DNA of 43,608 nucleotides from Opitutus sp. GAS368 (lineage in GTDB: Bacteria; Verrucomicrobiota; Verrucomicrobiia; Opitutales; UBA953). Below are positions 8,536 through 40,563 of this stretch, piece by piece. Below the pieces are notes generated by a model. The model was not told the origin of the DNA and made no database searches. It saw only the letters and a program-made list of their open reading frames with translations. The stretch lies in contig CALQIY020000005.1 of the NCBI GenBank assembly GCA_943330755.2, forward strand, positions 1-43,608. Reading direction: 5' to 3'. A program made the translations under genes and the position numbers. Within the stretch, counting starts at the first letter, position 1. Each line of letters starts with the position of its first letter.

Positions 8536-8540
8536 TTTAT

Positions 8541-8722
8541 AGAGGGGGTAGCGGTTAGGGGTTAGCGGATAGGGGTTAGGGGATGGGGGATGGGCGGAAG
8601 CGTTTGGGGTAAAACAAAAACAGAGCGCAGATCACGGCTTTCGATTCCACGAATTCCGTGACCTGCACTCTGCAGTCTTCCCCATCCCCTACCCGCCATC
8701 CCCCACCCCCTATCCCCTATCT
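8541..8722. repeat. Long imperfect palindrome with degenerate heptamer tandem arms
   Basis: Left arm of 7 heptamers at 8543-8591 (AGGGGGT AGCGGTT AGGGGTT AGCGGAT AGGGGTT AGGGGAT GGGGGAT). Right arm of 5 complementary heptamers at 8684-8718 (ATCCCCT ACCCGCC ATCCCCC ACCCCCT ATCCCCT). Inner 17-bp stem 8621-8637/8656-8672. Confidence 0.85.
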
Positions 8723-8725
8723 AAA

Positions 8726-24563: not shown

Positions 24564-24568
24564 GCCAG

Positions 24569-24633
24569 CCCCCATCCCCTTTCCCCTATCCCCTATCCCC
24601 TTTTCACTCCGGTCCCCCTTTTCGCCCCCTTTT
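24569..24633. repeat. Five heptamers (CCCCTAT type) plus two CCCCCTTTT units
   Basis: CCCCCAT CCCCTTT CCCCTAT CCCCTAT CCCCTTT at 24569-24603; CCCCCTTTT at 24614-24622 and 24625-24633. Confidence 0.75.
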
Positions 24634-24644
24634 CAACCCTCCCC

Positions 24645-37200: not shown

Positions 37201-37415
37201 CCAGCCGTCCGGGCACGCCCGCGGAACTCGCCGTCCTGCGCAAGGGACTCGACCGACGCTTGACGGCCTACGCGGCCGACCTCCCCGCGGCGAAGAAGCT
37301 CCTCGCCAATGGCCAAAGCGCCGTGCCGACCGACCTGGACCCGGCGCAACTGGCCGCGTGGACGGTAACCGCCAACGTCCTCCTCAACCTCGACGAAACC
37401 GTCACCCGCGAATGA
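34266..37415 (+). CDS. DUF1549/DUF1553 protein with planctomycete-type cytochrome c domain (copy 3)
   Basis: 1049 aa; FNRDIRPIFSDTCYACHGPDEAKMKGKLRLDS; HYGERMAAQWLDFARYADSNGFQSD; CCRCHDHKYDPI; VWVNRAWENFFGTGLVKTSENFG. Confidence 0.95.
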   Translation: MRVRRSSLLVLLAAASAVLAEDRVEFNRDIRPIFSDTCYACHGPDEAKMKGKLRLDSLEAARRGGKSGDPAIVPGYPERSAVMKRLLTTDADDHMPPAEFHKVLSKEQIELVARWIKEGAVYQGHWAFQTPKKSAVPAIPAGGNAIDGFVAQTRAAKGLSGTPEAPRTTLLRRAALDLTGLPPTEADLAAFLADTSPDAWSKALDRLLASPHYGERMAAQWLDFARYADSNGFQSDTTRTMWPWRDWVIRAYNANKPFDAFTIEQLAGDLLPNPTEDQIVATGFNRNHRLNGEGGRIVAEWAVETVIDRVETTGSTWMALTMNCCRCHDHKYDPISQKEFYQFFAYFNSNDETGVLGEFGGAASTRKGGNTAPTYTFATPAAKARLAEVEKAIAEAELAAKAATKNVAAAQGAWERKLRQGFAGKTTTWAALTGAQAISKGGATLKQQADGSWLAGGTNPDKDVYTVTAPAPAGELTGLLLEVMPDASLPTQSLGRAPNGNFVLSGVDAVLTLADGKKVELDFVDAQADFSQEGWPIKSLVEGGLATKAAKGAKKAQAARAKNGTGWAIGGNVAENRTPRKGLFVLTPTAVPAGATLTITLRCETLANHNVGRFRLSTTGLPASLVSLKDTPQATELRALILKDPAKRTADERKALAKAFSESPEHPKRSADAHLASLQNTKNMLPGLIDVMVMKELAQPKDAFVLDRGEYDKPSVKVERKLPAVLPPLPPGEPNNRLGFARWLVSGQHPLTARVWVNRAWENFFGTGLVKTSENFGSQAEWPSHPELLDWLAVDFAENGWDMKRLQKLILMSQAYRQSTVVTPEKLEKDPENRWISRGPRFRLPAETIRDQALAVSGLLVPKVGGVSVKPYMPEAVWDETSVYGDMRNYTADTGEGLYRRSLYTIWKRTAAPPSMLLFDSATREVCTVKRFRSNTPMQALSLLNEVTFVEASRKLAELTLRQTGTTDQRLAWAFQRVTSRPGTPAELAVLRKGLDRRLTAYAADLPAAKKLLANGQSAVPTDLDPAQLAAWTVTANVLLNLDETVTRE

Positions 37416-38878
37416 ACTGCAACGACCGCGATTTCTTCGGCCTCGACGACGCCACCCGGCTCGCCCTGTCCCGCCGCACCTTCCTGAAACGCTCGGCGGG
37501 AGGGATCGGCCTCGCCGCCCTCGGCTCAATCCTCGCCCCAACCGCCTTCGCCGGAAAACCCGAAGCACCGGGCTTCCCCAACTTCACGCCCAAGGCCAAG
37601 AAGATCATCTACCTGTTCCAATCGGGTGCACCGTCGCAGATGGACCTCTTCGACCCCAAGCCCGGGATGGACAAATTCCGGGCGCAGGACCTCCCCGCAT
37701 CCATCCGCCAAGGACAGCGCCTGACCACGATGACCTCGGGGCAGAAGAGCTTCCCCGTCGCCCCTTCGATCTTCAAGTTCAAGCAACACGGACAGTCCGG
37801 CCTATGGTTCAGCGAAGTCATGCCGCACATGGCGGGCAAAGCCGACGAATGGTGCATGGTCCGTTCGATGTTCACCGAGGCCATCAACCACGACCCCGCC
37901 ATCACCTTCATGCAGACCGGCAGCCAGTTGGCCGGTCGTCCGTCCATCGGTTCTTGGGCCAGCTACGGACTCGGCAGCGAAAACGACAACCTCCCGAACT
38001 ACGTCGTGATGTCCTCGTTCGGCAGTGGCCGCCCCGACGACCAACCGCTCTACGACCGCCTCTGGGGCGCGGGCTTCCTGCCCTCCAAGCACCAGGGCGT
38101 GAAGTTGCGCAACAAAGGCGAGCGCGTGCTCTACCTCAAGGACCCCGAAGGCATGAGCCGCGACATTCGCCGCGAATCCCTCGATGAGATTTCCGCGCTC
38201 AACCAACAGCGCCACGGCGTGCTCGGCGATCCGGAAATCCAGACCCGCATCGCGCAATACGAGCTGGCGTTCCGCATGCAGACCAGCGTGCCGGACCTGC
38301 TCGATTTCTCCAAGGAACCGCAGCATGTGCTCGACCTCTATGGTCCGGACGTGAAGCGCCCGGGTTCCTACGCCTCGAACTGCCTGCTCGCCCGCCGGCT
38401 CTGCGAGCGCGATGTCCGTTTCGTGCAGCTCTTCCACATGGGCTGGGACCACCATGGCGGCCTGCCGAAAGCCCTGCGCGGGCAGTGCAACGACACCGAC
38501 CAGGCGACCGCGGGCTTGCTCACGGACCTCAAGCAGCGCGGCTTGCTGGACGACACGCTCATCGTCTGGGGCGGCGAATTCGGCCGCACCATCTACTCGC
38601 AAGGCGCGCTGACCGAGACCAACTACGGCCGCGACCACCATCCCCGCTGCTTCACGGTCCTCATGGCCGGCGCCGGCGTCAAGAAAGGCCATGTCGTGGG
38701 CGAGACCGACGACTTCTGCTACAACATCGTCAAGGACCCCATCCACGTGCACGACCTCAATGCGACGATCATGCACCTCATGGGCGTCGAGCATACCCGC
38801 CTGACCTACCGCTACCAAGGACGCGACTTCCGTCTCACGGATATCCACGGGGAAGTGGTGAAGAAGGTCTTAGCCTGA
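37412..38878 (+). CDS. DUF1501 protein (Tat-type signal, copy 3)
   Basis: Start at ATG 37412 overlapping the upstream stop (ATGA). SRRTFLKRSAGGIGLAALG Tat motif; LFQSGAPSQMDLFDPKPG; WGGEFGRTIYSQG. Confidence 0.94.
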   Translation: MNCNDRDFFGLDDATRLALSRRTFLKRSAGGIGLAALGSILAPTAFAGKPEAPGFPNFTPKAKKIIYLFQSGAPSQMDLFDPKPGMDKFRAQDLPASIRQGQRLTTMTSGQKSFPVAPSIFKFKQHGQSGLWFSEVMPHMAGKADEWCMVRSMFTEAINHDPAITFMQTGSQLAGRPSIGSWASYGLGSENDNLPNYVVMSSFGSGRPDDQPLYDRLWGAGFLPSKHQGVKLRNKGERVLYLKDPEGMSRDIRRESLDEISALNQQRHGVLGDPEIQTRIAQYELAFRMQTSVPDLLDFSKEPQHVLDLYGPDVKRPGSYASNCLLARRLCERDVRFVQLFHMGWDHHGGLPKALRGQCNDTDQATAGLLTDLKQRGLLDDTLIVWGGEFGRTIYSQGALTETNYGRDHHPRCFTVLMAGAGVKKGHVVGETDDFCYNIVKDPIHVHDLNATIMHLMGVEHTRLTYRYQGRDFRLTDIHGEVVKKVLA

Positions 38879-38879
38879 T

Positions 38880-39004
38880 CGGTTGATTGGTTGGATCGTT
38901 GATTCGTTGAATGGTGGGTAATGCAGGAGCGATGCTGCCTGCAGAGGCATCATGCCCCTCCATCCAACCCCTTACTCCATTCAACGAATCAACCAATCAA
39001 CCGG
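38880..39004. repeat. Long palindrome with octamer tandem arms in convergent intergenic region
   Basis: Left arm GGTTGATT GGTTGGAT CGTTGATT CGTTGAAT (38881-38912); right arm is the complement of GGTTGATT GGTTGATT CGTTGAAT (38977-39004). Perfect 27-bp pairing except for an 8-nt bulge (GGATCGTT, 38893-38900). Confidence 0.9.
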
Positions 39005-39033
39005 TGCCGCGGACTCCGTACTCCACCCCAACC

Positions 39034-40473
39034 TCACTTCCCCATCTGCTCGCGATACATGACCTTGAAGGGGTTCTCGGCGGGCCCGACGGCCTTCTCG
39101 TTCACGAGTGATGGCTGAACGTCCGCCCACCACCGCTCGAAGTGTTCGGACAAGGCCTTGACCACCGCCGGGTGATCGGCGGCGACATTGGTTTGCTCAG
39201 CGTAATCCTTCTTCACGTCGAAGAGCAGCCAACGCGGCCCTTGGGCGACGGCGGCCGGTTTGGCGCCCGGCTGCAGGCTGGAGACCAGGTGCCACTGGTC
39301 GGTGCGCACCGAACAGCCGACATACTTACCTGTTTCGGGCGAAGCGCCACGATTCCACCGACCAACATGTGTCACCAACGTGCGAGAGGGCCAAAGGACG
39401 CTGACCGGACCGATCCGCATGAAGGGAGCCAGACTCTGCCCCTCGACTTGCGAGCGGAGCGACTCGGGCAAGGGTGTCCCGGTAAGCGCCAGGACGGTTG
39501 GCGTGAAATCGATGCTGGAGGCCAGCGTATCCACATCGCGGGCTTCCAACGTCCCGGGCCAGCGCCAAAACGCATTCGCCCTCGTCCCACCCAGGAAGGC
39601 CGTGCCTTTGGCGCCGCGCATGCCGGCATTGTGAACGGCCTGCCCCGCGGCGGTGCCGTTGTCGTTCATAAAGACGACGAGGGTGTCCTTCGCGACGCCC
39701 AGTTGCTCCAACTTGGCGAGGAGCCGCCCGACGTTCTCGTCGATGTTGTGGATCATGCCGTAGAAGTGCGCGAGCTGCGCGTTGGGCGTCTTCCCGGCAT
39801 AGCGCGCCGCATCTTCCGGCTTGGCCGTGTAGGGGGCGTGCGGGGCGTTGGTGGCCACGTGGCAATAGAAGGGCCGCTTGGCGGCGACCTCCTGTTCGAT
39901 CCATTTCGCGGCGCGCTCGAAGAAAACATCGGTGCAGAACCCCTGCGTCTTCTCGAATTTGCCGTTATGTAAAATGGCCGGATTGAAGTAGGTGTTGCCG
40001 GGAGCGTCTCCGCAGCTGCCCGCATAAGTCTGGCCAATGCCCCCGGCGCCGTGGATGAAGACCTCGTCGAAGCCGCGTCGACCCGGCTGGTATTCCGCCT
40101 CATCGCCCAGATGCCACTTGCCGAAAATCGCCGTCCGGTAACCGGCCTTCTGCAGAATCTGCGGCAGGGTCGTGGCGGCCAACGTCAGGCGCTCCCGCTC
40201 GAAGATGGTATGCGTCACGCCGTTCTTGAACTCATGCCGCCCGGTCAGCAAAGCGCTGCGCGTCGGGGCGCACGTCGGCGAGACGTGGTAATCGCTAAAC
40301 CGACAACTCTCGGCCCGCAAGCGATCCAGGTTCGGCGTTTTCAGCACCGGGTTGCCATGGGCGGAAAGGTCACCGTAACCTTGGTCGTCGGTCAGGATAA
40401 ACAAGACGTTCGGCTGGGCTGGTCCCGCGAGCAGACAAACACAGGAAAGGAACAGCCAGGTGATGCAGCGCAT
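39034..40473 (-). CDS. Secreted sulfatase (arylsulfatase family)
   Basis: Internal ATG at 40473 with signal peptide (MRCITWLFLSCVCLLAGPAQ); PNVLFILTDDQGYGDLSAHGNPVLKTPNLDRL; formylglycine motif SPTCAPTRSALLTGR; FGKWHLGD. Confidence 0.95.
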   Translation of the reverse strand: MRCITWLFLSCVCLLAGPAQPNVLFILTDDQGYGDLSAHGNPVLKTPNLDRLRAESCRFSDYHVSPTCAPTRSALLTGRHEFKNGVTHTIFERERLTLAATTLPQILQKAGYRTAIFGKWHLGDEAEYQPGRRGFDEVFIHGAGGIGQTYAGSCGDAPGNTYFNPAILHNGKFEKTQGFCTDVFFERAAKWIEQEVAAKRPFYCHVATNAPHAPYTAKPEDAARYAGKTPNAQLAHFYGMIHNIDENVGRLLAKLEQLGVAKDTLVVFMNDNGTAAGQAVHNAGMRGAKGTAFLGGTRANAFWRWPGTLEARDVDTLASSIDFTPTVLALTGTPLPESLRSQVEGQSLAPFMRIGPVSVLWPSRTLVTHVGRWNRGASPETGKYVGCSVRTDQWHLVSSLQPGAKPAAVAQGPRWLLFDVKKDYAEQTNVAADHPAVVKALSEHFERWWADVQPSLVNEKAVGPAENPFKVMYREQMGK

Positions 40474-40533
40474 GGGGTCGGCCCAAGTTACCCGACCCCC
40501 AGGGCGATTCCAGAACGAACTACCGCCCGGGGC

Positions 40534-40563
40534 TGGACAGGACAACCCCGCTGACCCTATAAA
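40534..40563 (+). promoter_or_regulatory. Candidate sigma-70-type promoter for the 40577 gene
   Basis: TGGACA (40534-40539), 18-bp spacer, TATAAA (40558-40563); 13 nt from the -10 box to the ATG. Confidence 0.5.

Follow-up and report, generated by a model that had tools for sequence, protein, structure and literature searches.

The element studied here lies between two convergent genes in the window, the 43,608-nucleotide stretch of DNA that was analyzed, which corresponds to contig C5 in G000, a metagenome-assembled genome (MAG) of 2.32 Mb. The gene to its left encodes a DUF1501 protein and the gene to its right a sulfatase. The named relatives of the DUF1501 protein come from freshwater Opitutae MAGs, with the best match (97% identity) in Opitutia bacterium UBA957, and the source genome is a freshwater Opitutae MAG of the UBA953/UBA957 type. 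The stop codons of the two genes face each other across 155 bp (38879-39033), as the original prediction of a convergent gap requires. The features discussed below are as follows.

37412-38878, + strand: DUF1501 gene, left convergent neighbor, stop codon at 38876-38878 (gene call; Pfam PF07394, 4e-157)
38880-38914, + strand: left arm, four octamers of the GTTGR-NNN family
38892-38899, + strand: 8-nt bulge in the RNA fold, one unit more than the right arm holds; its placement may shift by about 1 base
38915-38976, no strand: interior, which contains the small imperfect palindrome TGCAGGAGCGATGCTGCCTGCAGAGGCATCATGCCCCTCC; no multiple copies in the genome at the search sensitivity applied
38977-39003, - strand: right arm, three octamers of the GTTGR-NNN family, inverted
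39013-39024, - strand: ACTCCGTACTCC, an apparent two-unit remnant of an array of TACTCYG heptamers, which occupies the gap in two relatives (G020, G031)
39034-40545, - strand: sulfatase gene, right convergent neighbor, stop codon at 39034-39036 (gene call; Pfam PF00884, 8.7e-60)
8536-8725, no strand: second element of like layout, also in a convergent gap, its arms built of GGGGWTR heptamers

The left arm reads CGGTTGATT GGTTGGAT CGTTGATT CGTTGAAT GG and the right arm, when reverse-complemented, CGGTTGATT GGTTGATT CGTTGAAT GG. Removal of 8 nt from the left arm (GGATCGTT or a shifted equivalent) leaves exactly the 27 nt of the right arm, and the two arms pair over 27 bp without a mismatch, apart from the 8-nt bulge. 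Sequence and fold therefore confirm the predicted arms of four and three octamers, with a bulge of a single unit, and the small palindromes described inside the element are also present. The whole element spans about 125 bp and its stem encloses a loop of about 60 nt. Folded as RNA, the + strand of the gap reaches -68.2 kcal/mol (z -5.88) and the - strand -76.4 kcal/mol (z -5.96); 200 dinucleotide shuffles produced no fold as stable. The element had no Rfam family at threshold and no match among phage records.

Intergenic arrays have preferred periods and a common polarity

The genome was analyzed as sampled stretches, using a lag-based array scan and a simple codon-usage gene caller of our own rather than a standard program. 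Across 392 kb of G000, the scan detected 18 arrays in gaps, every one of period 7 or 8, and 15 in genes, with periods of 6, 9 or 12 throughout. When it was enlarged to about 636 kb of G000, with stretches from five further genus members and a wider range of periods, the gap excess at periods 7 and 8 (and 14) persisted in G000, and 6-bp and 12-bp families turned up in three of the other genomes (G016, G011 and G018). Mononucleotide-shuffled gaps yielded one array across five rounds, and two other genera of the order yielded none in 33.8 kb of gaps and two in 22.5 kb. The expectation that inverted tandem arms of 7-9 bp would recur was thus borne out by many further intergenic 7- and 8-bp arrays in the sampled genus genomes. 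Among gaps of at least 30 bp, in a sample that includes 29.6 kb of contigs picked for holding octamers, arrays were present in 21 of the 82 convergent gaps, 30 of the 418 co-directional ones and 6 of the 168 divergent ones, an enrichment in convergent gaps.

The arrays also have a common orientation. Their G-rich strand runs inward from both gap borders in 61 cases and outward in 11 (p=1.5e-9), and this is true in every gap type. With eight unit families used as tokens in 73 gaps, a set made up partly of loci picked for GTTG arrays, the plus-array came before the minus-array in 95 cases and after it in 3; for GTTG-type arm pairs the order was GTTG..CAAC in 14 cases and CAAC..GTTG in none. Since co-directional and divergent gaps show the same polarity, a purely 3′-end role does not cover all arrays, and for the same reason we rejected a sense-oriented 3′-UTR array as the source of the inversion. 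Several gaps hold more than one family stacked around the center, with GACA/GAGG-type arrays outermost, then GTTG, and ACCGG-type arrays innermost.

The original prediction had placed this element and the one near 8541 in a class defined by architecture rather than by sequence. The 8541 element does share the layout, with an unrelated sequence and a different, 7-bp unit, and the same inverted layout recurs, most often in convergent gaps, with many unrelated units (GTTGRNNN, GGGGWTR, GAKTACR, GACAAGGG-type, GAGGNCCN and others). However, the GTTG family is defined by its sequence as well, its cores being strongly conserved while spacers and interior drift.

Some further arrays were seen in passing. 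The 8536-8725 element contains an interior hairpin in which, relative to G020, both sides of the stem are apparently altered (GATCAC..GTGACC versus AATTAC..GTAATC), a possible compensatory change. At 24564-24644 of the window, a lone C-rich heptamer array without an inverted partner directly follows a stop codon in a co-directional gap. The window gaps that could be compared with those of G009, G020 and G031 are mostly conserved and array-free. Some gaps in G015 and G016 (L288 1258-1553, L271 1435-1779 and L287 1520-1968) consist almost entirely of concentric inverted arrays of several families around a REP or ACCGG-type center. Contigs of the G009 and G032 MAGs often end within GGGGATA heptamer arrays (C12, C56, C104 and C114 of G009; C11, C26, C35 and C45 of G032), so the arrays probably break assemblies and are undercounted.

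The octamer core is conserved at orthologous sites

We compared the DUF1501/sulfatase gap across about 25 relatives. The orthologous gap of UBA957 also carries this element, with four units on the left and two on the right, against four and three in the window. One octamer thus differs, in one arm only, which answers in the negative the earlier question of whether both arms change together. Seven species have in this gap a 189-bp GTTG element with different spacers and an inner border of GTTGGCCAGA..TCTGGCCAAC; G020 and G031 have TACTCYG heptamer arrays, other relatives GAGG-type or 12-bp arrays, and in three species the gap measures only 3 nt.

Three orthologous GTTG loci, represented by 7, 5 and 3 species and labeled uniformly, were pooled for a test of conservation. 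Variable columns numbered 6 of 110 in the core (GTTGR), 24 of 48 in the 3-nt spacers and 164 of 258 in the interior (core versus spacer, p=4e-10; core versus interior, p=5e-28), where conservation is somewhat inflated because the ortholog sets hold array-retaining species only, and where columns do not count as independent events on a tree. The five-species locus by itself gave p=0.088 for core versus spacer. In the seven-species alignment, a set that splits into two sequence groups, core columns vary far less than those of spacers or interior. The RNAalifold consensus of the orthologs pairs the cores exactly, and these pairs are essentially invariant, with no compensatory changes in the arm pairs. 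The data therefore favor a reading of the sequence at 8-nt pitch over selection on pairing only, and these alignments do not demonstrate selection on arm pairing alone. The best reading of the alignments is that the GTTG arrays are kept by selection on the core at 8-nt pitch. The element looks like a maintained signal rather than a mere copying accident, because the five core letters are nearly unchanged in related species while the flanking letters drift.

GTTG arrays recur in distant genomes of the class

Three GTTGR cores at 8-nt pitch matched 0-124 times per genome within the genus and almost never in 20 other genera of the order. A restriction of GTTG octamers to the genus had been considered on this basis; it was dropped when a search of 286 genomes of the class showed a patchy distribution, with dozens of matches in several distant genomes. 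In two of these, which belong to distant families of the class (G332: L363, L364 and L366; G163: L367 and L368), the same inverted octamer hairpins lie between genes, with GTTGANNN repeated three to four times and an inner border of AGGA..TCCT, at 60% and 44% G+C, respectively. Octamer counts were high in G028, G026, G014, G332, G163, G198, G210 and G258 and zero in G019, G020, G025 and G152; the genus is represented by 37 genomes. The high GTTGR counts of G175 and G270 reflect long uniform direct arrays, which are not the same thing. GAKTACR arrays and GGGGWTR arrays each occur in nine genus genomes, and neither was found in the 20 other genera searched.

A model for the element and its alternatives

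We give roughly even chances to the interpretation that this is a dispersed palindrome of REP-like kind, with arms of tandem octamers and a core under selection, most likely as a 3′-end RNA hairpin or a protein-binding array. The element would be one dispersed intergenic copy of a design whose octamers each join a fixed core, GTTGR, to a 3-nt spacer that varies, the two arms being mirrored around an expendable interior. In transcripts that run in from either gene, the element should fold as a long hairpin, interrupted so that helices of about 5 bp follow one another at 8-nt pitch. The repeated core would then be recognized by its sequence, most likely by a putative nucleic-acid-binding protein, so that transcripts are ended or protected at the 3′ ends of genes. 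Copies would spread by copying within the genome, slippage would alter the number of units in single arms, and other palindromes could insert in the interior. The sequence comparisons show the anatomy of the element, its dispersal, polarity and enrichment in convergent gaps, the conserved core at fixed spacing, the change of units in one arm independently of the other, and the replacement of an interior. Transcription of the element, its folding as RNA in the cell, the binding protein and the effect on transcripts are the parts of this model that we infer. More tentatively, and with the balance somewhat against it, the element may represent an undescribed signal class of the Verrucomicrobiota: mirrored GTTGR arrays at an exact 8-nt pitch, read by a putative repeat-recognizing protein at gene ends, and one of several 7/8-nt families with a common polarity (G-rich strand inward from both flanks) and concentric stacking around gap centers. 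That the core is conserved at fixed spacing across species whose surrounding sequence has turned over, and that unrelated families obey one mirror polarity, gives testable grounds for a repeat-reading factor or a transcript-end signal in an abundant, mostly uncultured freshwater lineage; it also provides a clean comparative setting in which to ask why short-repeat arrays persist.

The main rival is an array that acts as duplex DNA. A multimeric protein would read GTTGR every 8 bp, the mirrored arms would form a symmetric platform (a roadblock, or one for nucleoid or supercoiling functions), and RNA folding would be incidental. We consider this unlikely, though it deserves serious weight: selection acts on the core sequence at fixed spacing rather than on covarying pairs, and polarity is the same in convergent, co-directional and divergent gaps. 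However, an 8-bp pitch turns successive sites around the helix, which is unusual for a co-operative DNA array; no protein is known for such a role; and the enrichment in convergent gaps and proximity to gene ends suit transcripts better.

A non-autonomous mobile element of the REPIN or MITE kind, in which the tandem-octamer arms are ends recognized by a transposase and the locations are tolerated insertion sites, is in our judgment rather improbable. Its copies would be dispersed, with a unit vocabulary specific to each genome, as observed, and the 3-nt gap of some species at the DUF1501/sulfatase site (a comparison at species level), the patchy occurrence in the class and an interior insertion in a relative are in keeping with it. 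The insertion was found at a second locus, where a REP island occupies the interior of the GTTG element in G010 (L322) and is absent from G001 (L305); the left arm of L322 is intact, and the right arm was not seen in the stretch read. However, the arms and not the interior give genome-wide matches, the interior not being common to the copies, and cores that stay conserved at old orthologous sites imply that a copy has a role once it has been inserted. A Y1/RAYT transposase was rejected as the cognate enzyme: the palindrome GGGGTCAGRCCGCTYC..GARGCGGTCTGACCCC, likely the cognate REP family, adjoins the two Y1 transposase genes on contig C86 of G000 (L129 and L130), flanking the L130 gene on both sides, and octamer arrays do not.

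Intergenic short tandem repeats of bacteria are usually seen as slippage noise or typing markers. The original prediction had the element form by slippage or inversion at hairpins. In the neutral form of this explanation, replication slippage and template switching at a hairpin would multiply short units and copy them from one side of the stem to the other. Part of this stood: the single octamer gained or lost in one arm relative to UBA957 is slippage-like, unit number varies, and families swap at one site. As the main cause, however, the process is quite improbable. The right arm of the window scores 26 against an array on contig C132 and 20.5 against its own left arm, and the complementarity of sibling arms was not significantly higher than that of shuffled partners (54/500); co-evolution of arms within an element was accordingly set aside, as not significant overall and contradicted for the window pair by the C132 match. 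Twenty arms of G000 share a small vocabulary of units (GTTGAATG, GTTGATTC, GTTGATTG and GTTGGATG), and because octamer arms genome-wide draw on this common stock, the near-perfect match between the arms is not special to the window's pair. Taken together, the C132 match, the unit vocabulary and the result for sibling arms point to copying between loci, not local inversion, behind the perfect stem. The conservation of core over spacer and the identical polarity of unrelated families also argue against a neutral origin. Finally, an ordinary bidirectional intrinsic terminator serving both genes is very improbable: a strong hairpin in a convergent gap would suit one, and at a different orthologous locus species that lack the octamer element carry a terminator of hairpin plus T-tract in its place, but neither strand of this gap holds a T-tract or terminator-like site (0 found), the loop is about 60 nt rather than short, and arrays and ordinary terminators show no significant mutual exclusion (8/24 versus 27/58, p=0.33).

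Relation to known repeats

The interpretation of a REP-like element with a selected core invites comparison with described repeats. The P6b stem-loop of the Nostoc trnL (UAA) group I intron is built from heptanucleotide repeats of Class I (TDNGATT) or Class II (NNTGAGT) (PMC4476775). As here, its stem arms consist of degenerate short tandem units, single arms gain or lose units, and unrelated unit sequences replace each other at one site within one architecture (PMC4476775). In contrast, P6b occupies one intron position, with 7-nt units in a stem inside a ribozyme (PMC4476775), whereas we find hundreds of intergenic octamer and heptamer arrays, with no intron and with a conserved core and free spacer; the present element lies between the DUF1501 and sulfatase genes, not in a tRNA-Leu group I intron.

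Among dispersed palindromes between gene ends, the nearest are the GTAG/CGTC-tagged REPs, including GTAG-20 of Opitutus terrae, which are single palindromes of 20-40 bp for which RNA-level roles were proposed (PMC3733652). Like these REPs (PMC3733652), our element is an intergenic palindrome with a G-rich 5′ side, dispersed in many copies mainly in convergent and co-directional gaps near gene ends; unlike them, it has arms of tandem octamers without a tag, which start with CGGTTGATT rather than GTAG or CGTC, and such elements reach up to 125-190 bp overall. The octamer repeat flanks no cognate RAYT gene, the Y1_Tnp genes of C86 lying beside the other palindrome. The GGGNATC heptamers of Xanthomonas and Nostoc, direct arrays discussed as G-quadruplexes, are also degenerate short tandem units, intergenic and near stop codons, with about four units preferred (PMC4692102), but GTTG octamers lack G-runs and their arms are inverted; a G-quadruplex as common denominator was rejected for the GTTG element on the former ground. 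The TAACTGA repeats of Beggiatoaceae share with our arrays a fixed core and an intergenic location; they are 7 nt long, head-to-tail only (with one inverted case reported) and beside start codons, and binding of a post-transcriptional regulator has been proposed (PMC4679880). Among degenerate intergenic short repeats, these GGGNATC and TAACTGA repeats are the nearest relatives. Short tandemly repeated repetitive (STRR-type) heptamers are degenerate 7-bp units in direct tandem between genes; the units here are 8 bp and the arms inverted, and 7-bp families of like layout occur elsewhere in the genome. Because the defining features of Nostoc P6b, GTAG/CGTC REPs, GGGNATC repeats and TAACTGA repeats each fail, the element is a variant and not a member of these systems. 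Our search found no literature on such arrays in Opitutales or Verrucomicrobia, an absence that is weak evidence. Separately, a recurrent palindrome with heptameric arms and a conserved interior, TCAAAGGGAGACCGGAGACCGGATGATTGGCTGG..CCGGTTTCCGGTCTCCCTTTGA, was observed among loci L270-L289 (for example L277 1389-1529) and looks like a separate REPIN-type family.
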